Source: an uncultured Spirochaetales bacterium (GTDB taxonomy: Bacteria > Spirochaetota > Spirochaetia > Sphaerochaetales > Sphaerochaetaceae). Taken from it: a DNA stretch of 64,000 nucleotides. A program made the position numbers and the translations under genes. The stretch is from the NCBI GenBank assembly GCA_949288415.1, contig CASEKE010000004.1:1-64000 (forward strand), written 5' to 3'. Below the pieces are notes generated by a model. That model worked only from the letters and a program-made list of their open reading frames with translations, had not been told where the DNA came from and searched no databases. Positions 7,216-35,748 of this stretch are shown one piece after another. Positions within the stretch are counted from its first letter, which is position 1; each line of letters begins with the position of its first letter.

Positions 7216-8637
7216 ATGGAAGAAAGACATTCGGATTCAAGATCCAATCCGCTGGGCATCGACGACACGAGAAAACTTCTCGTACGCTTCGCGGTTCCCA
7301 GCATCATCGCGATGCTCGTCTCGAGCCTGTACAACATAGTCGACCAGATATTCATAGGACAGGGAGTCGGATACCTCGGAAACGCGGCGACCAACGTCGC
7401 CTACCCTTTTTCGACGATATGTCTCTCGATCGCGCTTCTGATCGGAATCGGAAGCGCTGCCAATTTCAATCTTTCGCTCGGGGCAAAGGACGAAGAGACG
7501 GCAGCGAGAACCGTAGGCAACGCTGTGATCCTCCTTGCCGTTCTTGGTCTTTCGCTCATGACAGTGACACTGGTTTTCTCTAGAAGACTTATATATCTTT
7601 TCGGGTGCACGCCGGAGATAGAACCGTACGCCATGACCTATGTGCGGATATGTGCGCTGGGATTTCCCGCCCTGATTTTCACGAACGGACTTTCGTCCCT
7701 TGCCCGTGCTGACGGATCACCGCGCTATTCCATGGCAATGATGCTGCTCGGGGCGGTGATCAACACAATACTCGACCCTGTATTCATCTTCGTATTCGAT
7801 TGGGGGATTGCAGGTGCGGCATGGGCCACGATCATAGGGCAGTATGCATCCTGCATCCTCGGAGCATGCTATCTCGGGCGCTTCAGGACAGTCGCTCTGG
7901 CCAAGTCGGCTTTCAGGTTCTCTCACACAATAGGAGGCAGGATATGCCAGCTTGGACTTTCCAACAGCCTGAATCAGCTTGCCATGACGCTCGTGCAGAT
8001 AGTCCTGAACAACAGTCTGACCTACTACGGCGCCCTTTCTGTGTACGGTGCGGAGATACCGCTTGCCTCGTCGGGGATAGTGATAAAGCTCAACTCGATC
8101 ATGATAAGCATAGTCGTGGGAATAAACCAGGGCAACCAGCCCATCCTCTCATTCAACTACGGCGCAAAAAAGTATTCCAGGGTAAAAAAGGCATATTTCA
8201 ACGGGATCGCAGCCGGTCTCGTCGTCACCTGCACAGGCTATGTGCTGGCAAACGTCTTCCCTGACGAGATAATATCGTTCTTTGGACGCGGCAACGCACT
8301 TTACATGCAGTTCGCAGTCAGATTCCTGAGGTACTACATGACCTTCAGTTTCCTAAATGCGGTACAGATACTCACCTCCAACTACTTCGCGGCGATAGGA
8401 TTCCCGATGAAAGGCGTGTTCCTCTCTTTGACCAGGCAGGTGATACTGCTCATTCCCATCGTCCTTGTCCTGCCACTGTTCCTCGGCCTCGACGGAATAC
8501 TCTACGCGACGCCTGCAGCGGATCTGCTGAGCTTCCTTATAGCCGTCGCCCTAATGGCGAAGGAGATGGGAAGGATGAAACATTTGATCGCCCATGAAAA
8601 TGATGATATCACCGGCAAAGAAGATGAAACGGCCTGA
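7216..8637 (+). CDS. MATE family multidrug/metabolite exporter
   Basis: A 473-residue inner-membrane antiporter with about twelve transmembrane segments. It shows the MATE repeat twice: LVRFAVPSIIAMLVSSLYNIVD near the N-terminus and the equivalent LGLSNSLNQLAMTLVQ after residue 240. PSIIAMLVSSLYNIVDQIFIG is the MepA/NorM hallmark. MATE proteins extrude cationic drugs or metabolites using Na+ or H+ gradients. The start has AAGGAG nine bases upstream. The last 44 bases overlap the start of yaaA in another frame, so the two genes are coupled. A second, different MATE gene lies downstream in opposite orientation. Confidence 0.93.
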   Translation: MEERHSDSRSNPLGIDDTRKLLVRFAVPSIIAMLVSSLYNIVDQIFIGQGVGYLGNAATNVAYPFSTICLSIALLIGIGSAANFNLSLGAKDEETAARTVGNAVILLAVLGLSLMTVTLVFSRRLIYLFGCTPEIEPYAMTYVRICALGFPALIFTNGLSSLARADGSPRYSMAMMLLGAVINTILDPVFIFVFDWGIAGAAWATIIGQYASCILGACYLGRFRTVALAKSAFRFSHTIGGRICQLGLSNSLNQLAMTLVQIVLNNSLTYYGALSVYGAEIPLASSGIVIKLNSIMISIVVGINQGNQPILSFNYGAKKYSRVKKAYFNGIAAGLVVTCTGYVLANVFPDEIISFFGRGNALYMQFAVRFLRYYMTFSFLNAVQILTSNYFAAIGFPMKGVFLSLTRQVILLIPIVLVLPLFLGLDGILYATPAADLLSFLIAVALMAKEMGRMKHLIAHENDDITGKEDETA

Positions 8638-28103: not shown

Positions 28104-28133
28104 AAAAAACGGGACTTCCCGCAGGAAATCCCG
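28104..28133 (-). terminator. Intrinsic terminator of the PTS operon
   Basis: Minus-strand stem CGGGATTTCC/GGAAGTCCCG (one G-U) with loop TGCG, then six T residues, 20 bases after the IICB stop. Confidence 0.93.
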
Positions 28134-28153
28134 TATTCTACAGCAGCTGACGC

Positions 28154-29587
28154 TTACTTGCAGAGTGCCTTGAACTCGTCGGCGACGAACTGTACCTTCG
28201 GTCCGATGATGACCTGGACTGCAGTCTTGCTCGGGCGGATGACACCCTTGACGCCTGCACTCTTGATCACCTTCTCGTCGACCTTGAGTCTGTCCTTGAC
28301 CTCGAGGCGGAGACGTGTGATGCAGTTGTCGATGCTCGTGACGTTTTCCTTTCCGCCGACACCCTGGAGAATGATCTTTGCGATCTCTGTGTAGTCGTTG
28401 GAAGCAAGCTCGACCTTGAGCTCATCCTCTACATCATCCTCTCTTCCAGGAGTCTTGAGGTTGAGCTTCTTGATCAGGACGTAGAATACCACGAAGTAGA
28501 TGGCACCTACGATAACGCCGATGACCAGCAGCCATGCCGGATGGAGAGCATGAGGAGCCTTGAAGGAAAGGATCCAGTCGACGAGTCCTGCGGAGAAGTT
28601 GAAGCCGGCTCTTACTGGGAGAGCTGCAACGATTCCGACAGAAAGTCCTGTGAGGATCGCATGTGCGAGATAGAGCTGCGGAGCAAGGAACATGAACGAG
28701 AACTCAAGAGGCTCCGTAACGCCGGTGAAGAAGGAGCAGAGAGCTGCAGCGAAAAGGATACCGGCAGCATTCTTCTTGTTCTTCTCCTTCGCAGTGAGAT
28801 ACATCGCATAAGCACCTGCAGGAAGACCGAACATCATGACAGGGAAGAATCCGGCCATGTACATTCCGGTCTGTCCGGTGATGCCGGTACCTGCCCAGAA
28901 GTTTCCGAGGTCGTTGATTCCTGCTACATCGAACCAGAATACGCTGTTGAGAGCATGGTGGAGTCCGACAGGGATGAGAAGTCTGTTGAAGAAGCCATAG
29001 ATTCCTGCTCCGACAGCGCCGAGACCGACGATAGCCTCGCCGAACTTGACGAGTGCACCGTAGATGAACGGCCATACGAATGTCATCGGGACACAGATGA
29101 TGAGAGTGGCGATCGCGGTGACGATTGCAACGGATCTTCTTCCGGAGAAGAAGGAAAGGAACTCAGGAAGCTGCGTCTTGTGGAATCTGTTGTAGCAGTA
29201 TGCACCGATGAGACCGGCAAAGATACCGATGAACTGGTTGTTGACCTTTGCGAAAGCCGCTGTGTCGAGCCAGGAGATGTTTGCTACGACAGTCGGGGAA
29301 ACTCCGCCGAGAATGGCCTGGAATACGAGCCAGGATACAAGTCCTGCAAGAGCGCTGGTACCCTCCTGATCCTTGGACATTCCGACTGCGACACCGATCG
29401 CGAAGAGAATTGCCATGTTGTCGATGAGGGAGCTTGCAGCCTTGATCATGAACAGTGCGACGACGCTGTTCGAGCCCCAGCCTACCGGGTCGATCCAATA
29501 ACCGATACCATAGAGAATTCCGGCGACAGGAAGACATGCAACCGGAAGCATGAGAGACTTACCGAGTCTCTGTAGAGTTTTCATCAT
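28154..29587 (-). CDS. PTS glucose/N-acetylglucosamine-type IICB component
   Basis: A 477-residue membrane permease that imports and phosphorylates its sugar. The IIC domain (residues 1-370) begins LQRLGKSLMLPVACLPVAG and has about ten membrane segments. The IIB domain (about 400-477) carries the phosphocysteine Cys422 in SIDNCITRLRLEV. The IIA domain is encoded separately upstream. The family covers glucose, N-acetylglucosamine and maltose; the NagE-like N-terminus does not settle the substrate. It is the last gene of the licT-controlled operon, with GGAGGGG before the ATG. Confidence 0.92.
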   Translation of the reverse strand: MMKTLQRLGKSLMLPVACLPVAGILYGIGYWIDPVGWGSNSVVALFMIKAASSLIDNMAILFAIGVAVGMSKDQEGTSALAGLVSWLVFQAILGGVSPTVVANISWLDTAAFAKVNNQFIGIFAGLIGAYCYNRFHKTQLPEFLSFFSGRRSVAIVTAIATLIICVPMTFVWPFIYGALVKFGEAIVGLGAVGAGIYGFFNRLLIPVGLHHALNSVFWFDVAGINDLGNFWAGTGITGQTGMYMAGFFPVMMFGLPAGAYAMYLTAKEKNKKNAAGILFAAALCSFFTGVTEPLEFSFMFLAPQLYLAHAILTGLSVGIVAALPVRAGFNFSAGLVDWILSFKAPHALHPAWLLVIGVIVGAIYFVVFYVLIKKLNLKTPGREDDVEDELKVELASNDYTEIAKIILQGVGGKENVTSIDNCITRLRLEVKDRLKVDEKVIKSAGVKGVIRPSKTAVQVIIGPKVQFVADEFKALCK

Positions 29588-29650: not shown

Positions 29651-29908
29651 TCAGAGATTCGCCTTGAAGAATGCCTCGAGCTCTGCGGCCGCGACATCTT
29701 CGTCCTCGCCCTCTACCTTGACAGTCACTGTATCGCCCTTCTTGACGACAAGCTTCATGACCGCCATGATCCTCTTCGCATCCGCACTTCCTTTTGCGGA
29801 AGAGAGAGTGACGGAGCTCTTGAAACCGGAAGCCTTCTTTACGAACTGGCCTGCCGGACGTGCGTGAATACCGAGTTCATCGGTGATTGTGTAGGTGAAT
29901 TCCTTCAT
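29651..29908 (-). CDS. ptsH: Phosphocarrier protein HPr
   Basis: An 85-residue phosphocarrier that takes phosphate from EI on His15 (GIHARPAG) and passes it to IIA. The second conserved stretch, usually KSIMGVMSL with regulatory Ser46, reads KRIMAVMKL, so residue 46 is Arg. It therefore cannot be phosphorylated there by HPr kinase. It starts 2 bases after the EI gene. GCGAGG lies 7 bases before the ATG. Confidence 0.95.
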   Translation of the reverse strand: MKEFTYTITDELGIHARPAGQFVKKASGFKSSVTLSSAKGSADAKRIMAVMKLVVKKGDTVTVKVEGEDEDVAAAELEAFFKANL

Positions 29909-29910
29909 TT

Positions 29911-31527
29911 CTATACCTCGCTTTCTATTACGTTCTTTCTAAGTGGCAATATCCTGGACGGACTCACACTGAGCTCGTCGTAGCCCATCTCCAGGAATGT
30001 ATCCGTAAGAGAAAGGTCCGCTGCAAGCTCTCCGCAGATTCCGGCCCAGATGCCGGCCTTGTGCGCATTGTCGACGATCAGCTTGAGAAGCCTGAGCACC
30101 GCAGGATGATGGGCGTCGTAGAAGTAGTCGAGCTTTGCGTTCTGCCTGTCGATCGCAAGCGTATACTGCGTCAGGTCGTTCGTTCCGACGCTGAAGAAAT
30201 CGACTTCCTTCGCAAGCTCGTCGCTGATGATGGCCGCGGCAGGCGTCTCCACCATGATTCCCAGCTCCGTATCCTCTCCTATCCTGTATCCGTCGTTTCG
30301 GAGCTCCTCCCTGATGCCGGCGCAGAACTCCTTTATCTCTTTCACTTCCTTGACGCTGATGATCATCGGGAACATCACGGAGACCGGACCGAAGGCGCTT
30401 GCTCTGTAGATCGCCCTCATCTGGGTACGGAATATATCCTTCTCGAGAAGGCAGATCCTTATGCCTCTGTAGCCGAGTGCAGGATTCTCCTCGCTGTCGA
30501 GCTTGAAGTAGTCGACCTTCTTGTCGGCCCCGATGTCCAGGGTCCGGATGACGACTCGCTTTCCTTTCATTCCCTCGACGACCGCGCGATACTTCGAGAA
30601 AAGCTCTTCCTCCGTGGGATAGTCATCCCTGCCGAGATAAAGGAATTCGGATCTGAGAAGTCCTATGCCCTCCGCATCTCCAGCGATGACGTACTTGAGG
30701 TCGTCGACATTGCCGATGTTCGCAAAAAGATTGATCTTCCTTCCTTTCTTGGACACGGACGGCTTTCCTCTGAACTGCTCCAGGCCTTCCTTGACGGCCT
30801 TGGCCTCCTTCTGCTTGGCGAGCATCCTGTTCATCGTCTCCTCGTCGGGATCGATGTAATATTCTCCGGAGAAACCATCGACGATCATCGTCCTGCCGTT
30901 GAGGGAAAGCTCTATGTCTATGTTCGTCTGGACCAGCGAAGGAAGATTCATAACGCGGGCCAGGATCGCCGTATGGGAATTGCTCGACCCCTGCCTGGTG
31001 ACGAAAGCCAATATCTTGTCCTTCTCGAGCTGTACCGTCTCGCTGGGCGTGAGGTCCTCCGCTACAAGGATTCCAGGCGTTGCCATCCTGAAAGTCGTAT
31101 CCGATCCCAGAAGGATCCTCACGAGCCTGTCCGATATGTCCCTGATATCCGTGGCGCGGGCTTTCATGTACTCGTCGTCGAGCGATGCAAAGAACGTGGC
31201 CTGGGCATCGCCGGTCTCATGCACGGCGAAAGCGGCATCGCAGCCCTGCTCTATCATCGCCTCTATCCCTTCCTGGAAATCGAGATCGTCGAGGAACATG
31301 ATCTGCACGTCGATGATTCCGGCCTGCTCCTCGCCGATGTCCTTCAGCGTCTTCTCGTAGAGTGCCTGAAGCTGCTCGTGGGCCGTTTCCTTTGCCTTGT
31401 GGAATCTTTCAAGCTCCTTCTTCTTGTCGCTTGCATTCTTCTTCAACTCGGTCTCGACCTTCCTATATACGTATATAGGACCGATCGCAACCCCGTCATA
31501 GACGGGTCTACCACTTCCCTTTATCAT
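29911..31527 (-). CDS. ptsI: PTS enzyme I (phosphoenolpyruvate-protein phosphotransferase)
   Basis: A 538-residue cytoplasmic enzyme, slightly shorter than the usual 570. It moves phosphate from PEP to HPr. The HPr-binding helical domain covers residues 25-140. The phospho-His is His185 in GSSNSHTAILARVMNLP. The PEP-binding barrel has GIGLLRSEFLYL, LDIGADK, GYRGIR and GIMVETPAAA. The start has TAGGAG upstream. It sits between the IIA and HPr genes in one transcript. Confidence 0.96.
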   Translation of the reverse strand: MIKGSGRPVYDGVAIGPIYVYRKVETELKKNASDKKKELERFHKAKETAHEQLQALYEKTLKDIGEEQAGIIDVQIMFLDDLDFQEGIEAMIEQGCDAAFAVHETGDAQATFFASLDDEYMKARATDIRDISDRLVRILLGSDTTFRMATPGILVAEDLTPSETVQLEKDKILAFVTRQGSSNSHTAILARVMNLPSLVQTNIDIELSLNGRTMIVDGFSGEYYIDPDEETMNRMLAKQKEAKAVKEGLEQFRGKPSVSKKGRKINLFANIGNVDDLKYVIAGDAEGIGLLRSEFLYLGRDDYPTEEELFSKYRAVVEGMKGKRVVIRTLDIGADKKVDYFKLDSEENPALGYRGIRICLLEKDIFRTQMRAIYRASAFGPVSVMFPMIISVKEVKEIKEFCAGIREELRNDGYRIGEDTELGIMVETPAAAIISDELAKEVDFFSVGTNDLTQYTLAIDRQNAKLDYFYDAHHPAVLRLLKLIVDNAHKAGIWAGICGELAADLSLTDTFLEMGYDELSVSPSRILPLRKNVIESEV

Positions 31528-31540
31528 CTGCGATCTCCTA

Positions 31541-32038
31541 TTACTTGGTCCTGATCTCTATTACAGTATCTCCGGGAACGACATCCTTTCCAGTGATTCC
31601 CTTGACCTCGGCATAGTCGTCCGTGTTGCAGATGACCATCGGAGTGATGATATCGAATCCCTTCTCGAGCAGAAGCGCTCTGTCGAACTCGATCAGAAGA
31701 TCGCCCTTCTTGACGGTGTCCTCGTTCTTCTTGAACGTCTTGAAACCTTCGCCCTTCAGACTGATCGTCTCCAAGCCGACATGGATGAGCACCTCGACCC
31801 CGTCCTTGCTCTTTATATTGACGGCATGTCCCGTATCGAACATGAGATCGATCGTCCCGTCGCACGGGGCATATACCTTGCCCTCCTCGGGATATATCGC
31901 CATGCCCTTTCCCATGATCTCCTCTCCGAACGTGGGATCCGAAACCTCGCTCAGAGGTACGGCCTTGCCCTTGACGTGAGCCGCAAGTGCGATCGTACCG
32001 TCATCCTTTGTCTTGAACAGCTTGTCGAATAATCCCAT
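31541..32038 (-). CDS. PTS glucose-type IIA component (Crr family)
   Basis: A 165-residue soluble protein that passes phosphate from HPr to the IICB permease. The active His86 lies in VLIHVGLETISLKGEGF. The Crr fold is recognised from MGLFDKLFK, YAPCDGTI and the second conserved His region replaced by HAVNIKSKDG. In enteric bacteria the homologue also regulates other transporters; here only its PTS role is supported. It lies 4 bases after licT, with AAAGGAG upstream. Confidence 0.94.
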   Translation of the reverse strand: MGLFDKLFKTKDDGTIALAAHVKGKAVPLSEVSDPTFGEEIMGKGMAIYPEEGKVYAPCDGTIDLMFDTGHAVNIKSKDGVEVLIHVGLETISLKGEGFKTFKKNEDTVKKGDLLIEFDRALLLEKGFDIITPMVICNTDDYAEVKGITGKDVVPGDTVIEIRTK

Positions 32039-32042
32039 TTCT

Positions 32043-32891
32043 TCATCTTCTCCTTTCTATGTACTTCTCATAGCAATATATATTCGCTTCCAGAAGCGCC
32101 CTGTCGACGCCCGAAAGCTTCCGACGGCTACCTTTGAAGAGCAACGCGGCAACCTCGTCGGCAATTTCCTTCACTCTGGGGCATGCATGCTCGATCAGAT
32201 TCGACAGCATGTCCTCGCCGTCGTCGGTATCGCCGGACTCCCCATACACCCGGAACACCAGGAACTTGAGGAAGCTGATGAGCTCCGAGCTCTTCGGATC
32301 GTCCTCGCTCGAACCGACCCCCAGCCGGGAATCTATGAGGAACAGAGTATCCCTTATCGTCCCGGTGATTCCGACCACGGATCCTATCTGGCTGGAGAAC
32401 TCCGCGTTTACTATATGGAGCGCGATCGAGCAGGCCTCGTCCTCTGGAAGAATCACACCCAGCTCCTTTCGTATCGCGGAAAGGGCGTACCTGCCAACGG
32501 AATACTCCCTCGGATAGAATATCCTGACCTCGCTCGTCAGCGCAGATCCGACATGCATTCCTTCCCTGAAGCGCGAGATCGCGAAGTTCACGTGGTCCGT
32601 AAGGGTCAGATACACACTGTCGTTGAGGCTTGTCGAGAGTATCTCCTTGGCATAGTCGATTATCCCGACGCAGACTTCGATCTGCTTTTCGGGAAGCTTC
32701 GAAAAGAGGTTCTTGATGCTGTCGTATCCGCTCTGTTCGCTGATTTCGAAAATCTTCTCCACTCTCTTCATGTCGAGTGTGGCTCCGGCCTTGAAATCGA
32801 ATCCCAGTCCGCGGCCCATCGCGATCGACTCCCTGCCATCATCTCCTATGCAGGCAACGATGTTGTTGTTGATCGTCTTTGTAACCAGCAA
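32043..32891 (-). CDS. licT: BglG/LicT family transcriptional antiterminator
   Basis: A 282-residue RNA-binding regulator. Residues 1-55 form the CAT RNA-binding domain (LVTKTINNNIVACIGDDG). PRD1 covers about 65-170, with a conserved His in TDHVNFAI. PRD2 covers about 175-280, with His in SIALHIVNAEF. These PTS-regulated domains are phosphorylated according to sugar flow. The start is TTG at 32891, with AAAAAGGAG seven bases upstream; the frame remains open to 32930, but that part overlaps the terminator T-run. The protein should bind the RAT site at 32990-33018 and keep its own operon transcribed. Confidence 0.93.
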   Translation of the reverse strand: MLVTKTINNNIVACIGDDGRESIAMGRGLGFDFKAGATLDMKRVEKIFEISEQSGYDSIKNLFSKLPEKQIEVCVGIIDYAKEILSTSLNDSVYLTLTDHVNFAISRFREGMHVGSALTSEVRIFYPREYSVGRYALSAIRKELGVILPEDEACSIALHIVNAEFSSQIGSVVGITGTIRDTLFLIDSRLGVGSSEDDPKSSELISFLKFLVFRVYGESGDTDDGEDMLSNLIEHACPRVKEIADEVAALLFKGSRRKLSGVDRALLEANIYCYEKYIERRR

Positions 32892-32919
32892 AAGAATACT
32901 CCTTTTTCCGTCCTGAAAC

Positions 32920-32995
32920 AAAAAAACCAAATTCTATAGATACTCAAATGCGGAAGAAACTCTCCCACAGTTGAAAAACTATAAAATTTGGTTTT
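32920..32995 (-). terminator. Conditional terminator in the PTS operon leader
   Basis: On the minus strand the arms AACCAAATTTTATAG and CTATAGAATTTGGTT pair across a 40-base loop and are followed by TTTTT. The left arm shares AAAACC with the antiterminator site, so the two structures exclude each other. Confidence 0.85.
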
Positions 32996-33018
32996 GCCCT
33001 CGAGTAGGTAACAATCCT
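32990..33018 (-). promoter_or_regulatory. LicT-type RNA antiterminator (RAT) site
   Basis: The 29-base minus-strand element begins AGGATTGTTACC and ends GAGGGCAAAACC. These two halves are the conserved boxes of RAT hairpins recognised by LicT/SacT/BglG proteins. It lies between the promoter and the conditional terminator. Confidence 0.9.
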
Positions 33019-33030
33019 TAACTACTGAAT

Positions 33031-33059
33031 ATTAGAACATCGAAAAACGAAGCTGTCAA
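33031..33059 (-). promoter_or_regulatory. Promoter of the PTS operon
   Basis: Minus-strand TTGACA, 17 bases, TCTAAT. Transcription would start near 33024, just before the RAT site. Confidence 0.85.
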
Positions 33060-33129: not shown

Positions 33130-33165
33130 AAAAAAAATGGCCGCCGGAAAACCGATTCCGACGGC
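33130..33165 (-). terminator. Intrinsic terminator of nhaC
   Basis: Minus-strand 10-bp stem GCCGTCGGAA/TTCCGGCGGC (one G-U) followed by CA and eight T residues. Confidence 0.92.
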
Positions 33166-34992: not shown

Positions 34993-35748
34993 CTACATAG
35001 GAATATAATCGTCGGCTTCGGTGAAACAGTGCATCATCAGAGGAGGAAGGATCTTGAGCCCTGCGCCGAAAGTATAGTCCTCGTTCACCGCCAGCTGGGT
35101 CGCCCTGTTTGTGAAGTACACCCTGTAAAGGGCAAGGAGTTCGTCGCTGAACTGGCTCTTGTGGAACTCCATCGCCTTGAAGCGCCGTACCAAAGTAGTG
35201 GATACGTCGAGTATGACGTTCGGCTTCGCAGTCAGGTAGTAGGCCATCAGAGTGACCGAATGGGGAGTCGTCGACGTTCCGCGCGGATACTCCATCAAAG
35301 AAGACGAGATCACCGCCTGGCTCGTGGCCTTTGCCGTGACGATGTGGTCCATATGCGACTCGTATGGAAGATACGGATCCGGAGAGAGCACTAGATCGGG
35401 CCTGTAGCTTCTTATCACCTCCGCGATGCGTCCTGCAAGCGCGGGCACATCCTTCAGCGCTCCGTCCTTCTCGTCGAGATATGTGAATCCGTCGACTCCC
35501 AGATATCTTCCACTGGCCTCCGTCTCCATTTTGCGTATGGCCACGATGCTCTCCTTTGGAATGTCGGGGGAATTGACGCCGAGAGAGCCGTCCGTCACCG
35601 TCAGGTAGTGGATCTCCGCCCCGCTGTCATGGAGCTTCGCGATCACGTCGCCAGCGCCTACCTCGGCATCGTCGGGATGTGGCTGGACGACCAGCACTCT
35701 CCTCATTGAAAGAATGTCATACTTAGGAAGCAATTCGCCAAGTTCCAC
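34993..35748 (-). CDS. PIG-L family deacetylase
   Basis: A 251-residue zinc hydrolase of the LmbE/PIG-L family. The metal motif QPHPDDAEVGAG (His and Asp near residues 23-26) and the later HMDH (about residue 132) are present, with TVTDGSLG between them. Relatives remove acetyl from N-acetylglucosamine-type groups in glycolipids, mycothiol, bacillithiol or chitobiose. It begins with GTG at 35748, behind AAGGAGGG. It is downstream of manA and a uridine-kinase-like gene, so amino-sugar or mannose metabolism is a possible context. Confidence 0.9.
   Translation of the reverse strand: MELGELLPKYDILSMRRVLVVQPHPDDAEVGAGDVIAKLHDSGAEIHYLTVTDGSLGVNSPDIPKESIVAIRKMETEASGRYLGVDGFTYLDEKDGALKDVPALAGRIAEVIRSYRPDLVLSPDPYLPYESHMDHIVTAKATSQAVISSSLMEYPRGTSTTPHSVTLMAYYLTAKPNVILDVSTTLVRRFKAMEFHKSQFSDELLALYRVYFTNRATQLAVNEDYTFGAGLKILPPLMMHCFTEADDYIPM

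Follow-up and report, generated by a model that had tools for sequence, protein, structure and literature searches.

A probable BglG/LicT-family antitermination switch ahead of the gene for its antiterminator and of a complete N-acetylglucosamine PTS in a gut spirochaete

In the window (the whole stretch of 64,000 nucleotides analyzed), the minus strand carries, in this order, a promoter, a RAT element, a terminator and the genes licT, IIA, EI, HPr and IICB, the same arrangement that an earlier note on this DNA had described. The licT-like antiterminator gene (32043-32891, minus strand) has a TTG start and encodes a protein of 282 aa containing the Pfam domains CAT_RBD and PRD, with matches to LicT structures in the PDB. 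It is followed on the same strand by a glucose-class EIIA (31541-32038; PF00358, 164 bits in Pfam and above the cut-off of TIGR00830), Enzyme I (ptsI, 29911-31527; found by Pfam and by TIGR01417 with 587 bits, with the active-site SHTAI kept), HPr (ptsH, 29651-29908; Pfam and TIGR01003, with His15 and Arg46 by residue alignment) and an EIICB of the N-acetylglucosamine (GlcNAc) type (28154-29587; TIGR01998 with 609.5 bits, cut-off 553.2), whose IIB cysteine lies in DNCITRL. A terminator with an 11-pair stem and a T run closes the operon (28109-28134, minus strand). With EI, HPr, IIA and a GlcNAc-type IICB all bearing their active residues, the predicted products make up a complete GlcNAc PTS.

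The genes from licT to IICB are separated by gaps of 4, 13, 2 and 63 bases, and no minus-strand promoter-like site was found inside the operon by a scan for the sigma-70 consensus. Three weak terminator-like matches fall within it, two in licT and one in EI; across the scanned region, 12 such matches were found against 8.8 expected. Being part of one tight unit devoid of an internal promoter-like site, EI and HPr stand behind the same RNA switch as the permease, which agrees with the earlier reading. The TTG start of licT at 32891 also holds, in register with LicT residue 1, but it does not come right after the T run as had been stated: it lies 28 nt downstream, preceded by a Shine-Dalgarno-like AGGAG.

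Searching named genomes with the operon EI returned 15 loci. Three are uncultured Spirochaetales MAGs (L019, L020 and L021), with EI 77-78% identical to that of the window, and the other 12, mostly from Bacillota, show 35-59% EI identity. The five-gene order with an intact licT is present in 5 of the 15, the three spirochaetes and the clostridial loci L031 and L032, licT starting with TTG in the former and with GTG in the latter. A Lachnospiraceae MAG (L023) has the same order, with an in-frame stop interrupting licT (118-951) and open frames in the rest of the operon; the stop could be either a sequencing error or a real loss. The L031 locus, from a MAG labelled Muribaculaceae, is nearly identical to that of the Blautia MAG L032, and its label probably stems from mis-binning of the public MAG. 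A different layout is seen in Lachnotalea (L027, 2280-7632), where licT stands between two RATs and is followed by genes for a HAD-like protein and a 6-phospho-beta-glucosidase and then by ptsH and ptsI. Here ptsHI come under LicT control by a different route, and all PRD histidines are retained.

The IICB stays below the glucose model (421.1 bits, cut-off 591.8). A nagA gene is present in the genome of the window, nagB and nagA stand behind the operon in L023 and L032 (NCBIfam), and in L031 the operon is followed by ORFs that match nagB and nagA by position and sequence start. Given the match to the GlcNAc model together with this nagA/nagB context, GlcNAc is the likely substrate, and likely a better name for it than glucose. 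Upstream of the neighboring nhaC, at 34993-35748, the window encodes a PIG-L family deacetylase with sub-cut-off similarity to the bacillithiol enzyme BshB1; a link to amino-sugar use is possible.

The licT promoter (33031-33059, minus strand) was recognized by direct reading as TTGACA (33059-33054), a 17-nt spacer and TCTAAT (33036-33031), matching the consensus at 11 of 12 positions. Our mechanical scan did not list it because it requires A at the second position of the -10 box. Promoters of the form TTGACA/T-17-TNTAAT precede the RAT in five homologous leaders (L019, L020, L021, L031 and L032). In the window, the RAT begins 12 bases after TCTAAT; it is a 29-nt element of the LicT/SacY type (32990-33018, minus strand), AGGATTGTTACCTACTCGAGGGCAAAACC, which matches the pattern with 0 mismatches. 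When up to 3 mismatches are allowed, this is the single match in the window, where 0.01 would be expected, and also the single match in the 2.08-Mb assembly, so that the search for further RAT sites that had been proposed found none beyond that of the operon. The genome-wide count is weak by itself, since a reversed control pattern also hits one place, though the true site has 0 mismatches.

The RAT 3' end overlaps a predicted intrinsic terminator (32920-32995, minus strand), composed of a 17-bp outer stem and an inner hairpin followed by a T run. Its 5' arm starts inside the RAT, with AAAACC common to both, which makes the two structures mutually exclusive. The terminator hairpin has -34.7 kcal/mol versus -3.3 for the RAT hairpin alone, and for this reason a protein should be needed to form the antiterminator. 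The fold of the 211-nt leader has a z of -4.5 and is stabler than 200 of 200 shuffles. The leader is conserved in the three other spirochaete MAGs and the two clostridial loci, and the RAT is kept in all of these and in L027. In an alignment of these six leaders with that of the window (seven leaders, six distinct), 94% of the stem cells pair, all 17 outer pairs are retained in 6 of the 7, and double changes occur at 4 terminator stem pairs (1.0 on average after shuffling), a covariation that is modest evidence given the few sequences. Searching the window with Rfam at the gathering threshold gave only a tRNA, so that the leader stands outside any curated family at that threshold. Judging from its sequence, it has the build of a RAT/terminator leader downstream of a promoter. 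Another terminator-like hairpin (33140-33165), after the upstream nhaC, would separate this gene from the licT promoter.

The LicT-like protein has an N-terminal CAT RNA-binding domain (PF03123 with 55.7 bits, cut-off 25; PDB matches 1l1c and 6twr). PRD1 was found by Pfam, and PRD2 by alignment to 1tlv and by the predicted fold (mean pLDDT 77), the model matching the native LicT PRDs 1tlv with a TM of 0.87 by target in Foldseek. PRD1 residues His100 and His159 are invariant in all seven aligned LicTs (window, L019-L021, L031, L032 and L027). Having CAT, two tandem PRDs and the PRD1 histidines, the protein can be assigned to the BglG/LicT family of antiterminators. It is not a LicT in the narrow sense of an HPr-activated protein, as the PRD2 histidines are missing and the NCBIfam LicT model (NF046042) gives 226.5 bits, under its cut-off of 300; nor does it classify as a GlcT-type antiterminator (157.3 bits with the GlcT model, cut-off 320). 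At the first PRD2 site, the four spirochaete proteins have Phe, L031 and L032 have Asp and L023 has Asn; the second site is Asn in all seven of these operon-linked LicTs. In the structure alignments, the first site is His in 1tlv and Asp in 1h99, which we take to be an activated mutant of LicT.

We aligned LicT-like proteins from 12 of the 25 spirochaete loci L054-L078 (the other 13 gave no LicT in 11 cases and one too short in 2); L077 has neither PRD2 histidine and the remaining 11, as read from the alignment, have both. That HPr is made behind the switch is an attractive reason for the loss of the PRD2 sites, weakened by L027, whose LicT has His at both positions with ptsH-ptsI following licT; placing ptsHI behind LicT does not, for this reason, require the loss. 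As a necessary result of that placement, the loss is likewise weakened by L027 and L077.

In LicT, phosphorylation of PRD1 by the EII is described as inhibiting and that of PRD2 by HPr as activating, in the available part of PMC7430163, and B. subtilis GlcT is described as active when unmodified, in that of PMC12445079. Since both PRD2 histidines are missing here, LicT should not need HPr~P, and the switch could then start before the operon EI and HPr exist. From these rules and the PRD2 loss, the simplest reading is a LicT that would be active unless an idle permease turns it off. When GlcNAc is absent, phospho-IIB would phosphorylate PRD1, leaving LicT inactive, and transcription would end at the terminator. 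When it is present, the phosphate would go to the sugar, and the unphosphorylated LicT would dimerize and hold the RAT hairpin so that the polymerase passes. We consider it fairly probable that the system starts from slight read-through and that the transporter then shuts the switch off unless sugar is present. The earlier suggestion that PTS flux sets the expression of the operon is plausible in this form, but through relief of the EIIB-dependent inhibition and not through HPr.

Classical LicT control would instead have HPr still phosphorylating another PRD2 residue, or a second HPr site, so that LicT depends on HPr~P and the HPr of the operon feeds back positively on its own expression. The preserved PRD2 fold is consistent with it, as is the Lachnotalea homologue, which has all four histidines and ptsHI behind licT. 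However, both known PRD2 sites are replaced in 7 of 7 operon-linked proteins, two of them with Asp at the first site, and we regard this alternative as unlikely.

The whole-genome search found two EI and two HPr genes. The second EI (C7:10161) lies between rny-like and der-like ORFs, in G085 as well as in this genome. The second HPr (C2:18437) clusters with ORFs resembling raiA, rpoN and lptB and adjoins hprK, the one HPr kinase gene of the genome (neighbor names by resemblance). Two IIA-Ntr-type proteins were also found. With these genes present, the operon is not the sole PTS phosphorelay of the genome. The earlier note had proposed that this might be the single PTS of the organism, whose only EI and HPr would set their own expression. 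One PF02378 permease, no PF03609 permease, one CAT-domain protein and one RAT in the assembly, which is 87% complete, favor the idea, but the second EI, with its der-like neighbor, and the further HPr, next to hprK and to the raiA-like and rpoN-like ORFs, speak against it, together with the IIA-Ntr-type genes, and make it very improbable. What survives is a narrower form, in which the operon may be the only sugar-importing PTS, as far as these two permease families go in the 87% complete assembly, but does not hold the only EI and HPr. Of the second constitutive EI/HPr pair that the note had named as a refutation, an EI and an HPr were thus found, which may or may not be constitutive, but the two genes are not a pair. 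They might also serve the operon IICB.

The two HPr proteins differ at one regulatory residue: the second has His15 and Ser46, and that of the operon His15 and Arg46. None of 25 HPr sequences (the operon HPr of the window and 24 homologues) has Ser at aligned position 46. In Firmicutes, the target of HPr kinase is Ser46, as stated in the available part of PMC2405797, so that the operon HPr should escape the kinase. We expect HPr-kinase control to act on the other HPr, and the operon HPr should lie outside it.

Within the family of the window, a CAT-domain protein was found in 3 of 119 sampled genomes, all of the same genus as the window, and within the phylum in 27 of 392 genomes. We fetched 15 family loci (nine from the genus of the window, five from another genus and one from a third), chosen among the EI hits by an EI frame length like that of the window. 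Fourteen have the IIA-EI-HPr-IICB order with neither a LicT match nor a RAT, and the fifteenth (L093) has only distant EI and HPr. The transport cassette exists, therefore, in two regulatory states. The 14 operons without licT and RAT could be taken to mean that the switch is decaying, with a LicT stuck on or off for lack of PRD2 sites, a vestigial leader and an operon heading to the form devoid of licT. The broken licT of L023 fits, as does the divergence of LicT, which changes more quickly than the other four operon proteins (49% identity to L019 versus 67-81%). On the other hand, the reading frames are intact in four spirochaetes, licT is under purifying selection (dN of 0.061 versus dS of 1.7 among L019-L021), the CAT residues and PRD1 histidines are invariant, and the RAT and terminator are precisely conserved. 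We judge decay to be improbable, somewhat more so than classical control. In the same L019-L021 pairs, HPr (gene 7622-7876) has a dS of 0.24-0.51, lower than that of licT, IIA and EI (0.42-1.73); codon bias and a hidden element are candidate explanations.

In a tree of IIA, HPr and IICB (21 rows), one clade with support of 100/99 unites the four spirochaete operons that carry licT. When the tree is rooted on the clostridial operons, whose switch is the same, at least 2 changes of licT state are needed, so that two losses and a loss followed by a regain are equally short. The switchless relatives either dropped the switch or never had it. In two of them (L085 and L086), the operon follows a similar kinase gene and upstream ORFs, with nhaC and licT lacking; gene names there are by sequence resemblance, weak kinase hits being the sole support from family searches. 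The layout suggests a change at one genomic place. These two loci come from 1.5-Mb genomes of the same genus (G032 and G058, about 95% complete), each having a single EI match, which is the operon EI. It is 60% identical to the EI of the window, and their HPr and IICB are 72-76% identical, a pattern which suggests that EI is replaced or fast-changing once the regulatory EI has been lost. Deep placement in the EI tree is uncertain because of the long branches of L010 and L093. The cassette is related to the clostridial licT-crr-ptsI-ptsH-nagE-nagB-nagA operon, and it is likely of clostridial origin.

Taken together, the locus is probably a BglG/LicT-family antitermination switch acting on the gene of its own antiterminator and on a complete GlcNAc PTS, in an uncultured gut spirochaete. 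Most likely, an antitermination switch of a known type travels along with a GlcNAc operon of the clostridial type. A bolder proposal, which we put forward tentatively and at somewhat less than even chances, is a self-starting, HPr-independent LicT switch that moves together with an entire PTS and lost its PRD2 sites because EI and HPr are made only behind it; with an HPr that lacks the kinase serine, the import unit would be insulated from the regulatory PTS of the host and carried with or without the RNA switch. If true, a transport PTS can enter a bacterium with a regulatory EI, HPr and HPr kinase and stay uncoupled from them. Related operons that differ in the presence of licT and RAT, and antiterminators that stand above ptsHI in this lineage without their HPr sites, offer a natural test of the roles of the two halves of PRD control.

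The mechanism as such is already known. The unusual part is that, in a spirochaete, a single RAT precedes licT, EI and HPr together, that the PRD2 and HPr sites are altered, and that close relatives are without the switch. We found no LicT-controlled ptsHI operon of a spirochaete in the open-licence literature, which is weak evidence of absence. The Lachnospiraceae/Blautia operons (L031, L032, and L023 with its broken licT) share the gene order and the missing PRD2 histidines, with RAT and terminator in L031 and L032, but they include nagB and nagA, and their LicT and EI are 38-40% and 57-58% identical. As far as the consulted portions of PMC7430163 and PMC1489936 describe them, LicT-bglPH of B. 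subtilis and bglGFB of E. coli have in common with this system the CAT domain, two PRDs, a RAT overlapping a terminator and an EII-dependent inhibition; unlike here, the sugar is a beta-glucoside and LicT is activated by HPr through PRD2, at sites that are missing in our protein. The Borrelia ptsH-ptsI-crr genes, in the portion of PMC2405797 consulted, are likewise an imported transport PTS in a spirochaete beside an older rpoN-linked HPr, but their inferred source is the gamma-proteobacteria, and neither a RAT nor an antiterminator is mentioned in that portion. In the GlcT-ptsGHI system of B. subtilis, the antiterminator is also active when unmodified and inhibited at PRD1 by the EII, and permease and ptsHI also follow a RAT/terminator; in contrast, glcT is expressed constitutively and a strong promoter of their own serves ptsHI, as far as PMC12445079 was available, whereas here the switch precedes licT itself and an internal promoter is not predicted. 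NagY-nagE of Enterococcus faecalis, which is induced by GlcNAc, also begins with the gene of a BglG/SacY-family antiterminator, followed by a GlcNAc permease, and has its own RAT/terminator, but that operon, in the available text of PMC9981650, is nagY-nagE alone and belongs to another phylum, while here IIA, EI and HPr are also included. By this comparison, NagY-nagE comes nearest among described cases in its sugar, and GlcT-ptsGHI in its general genes.
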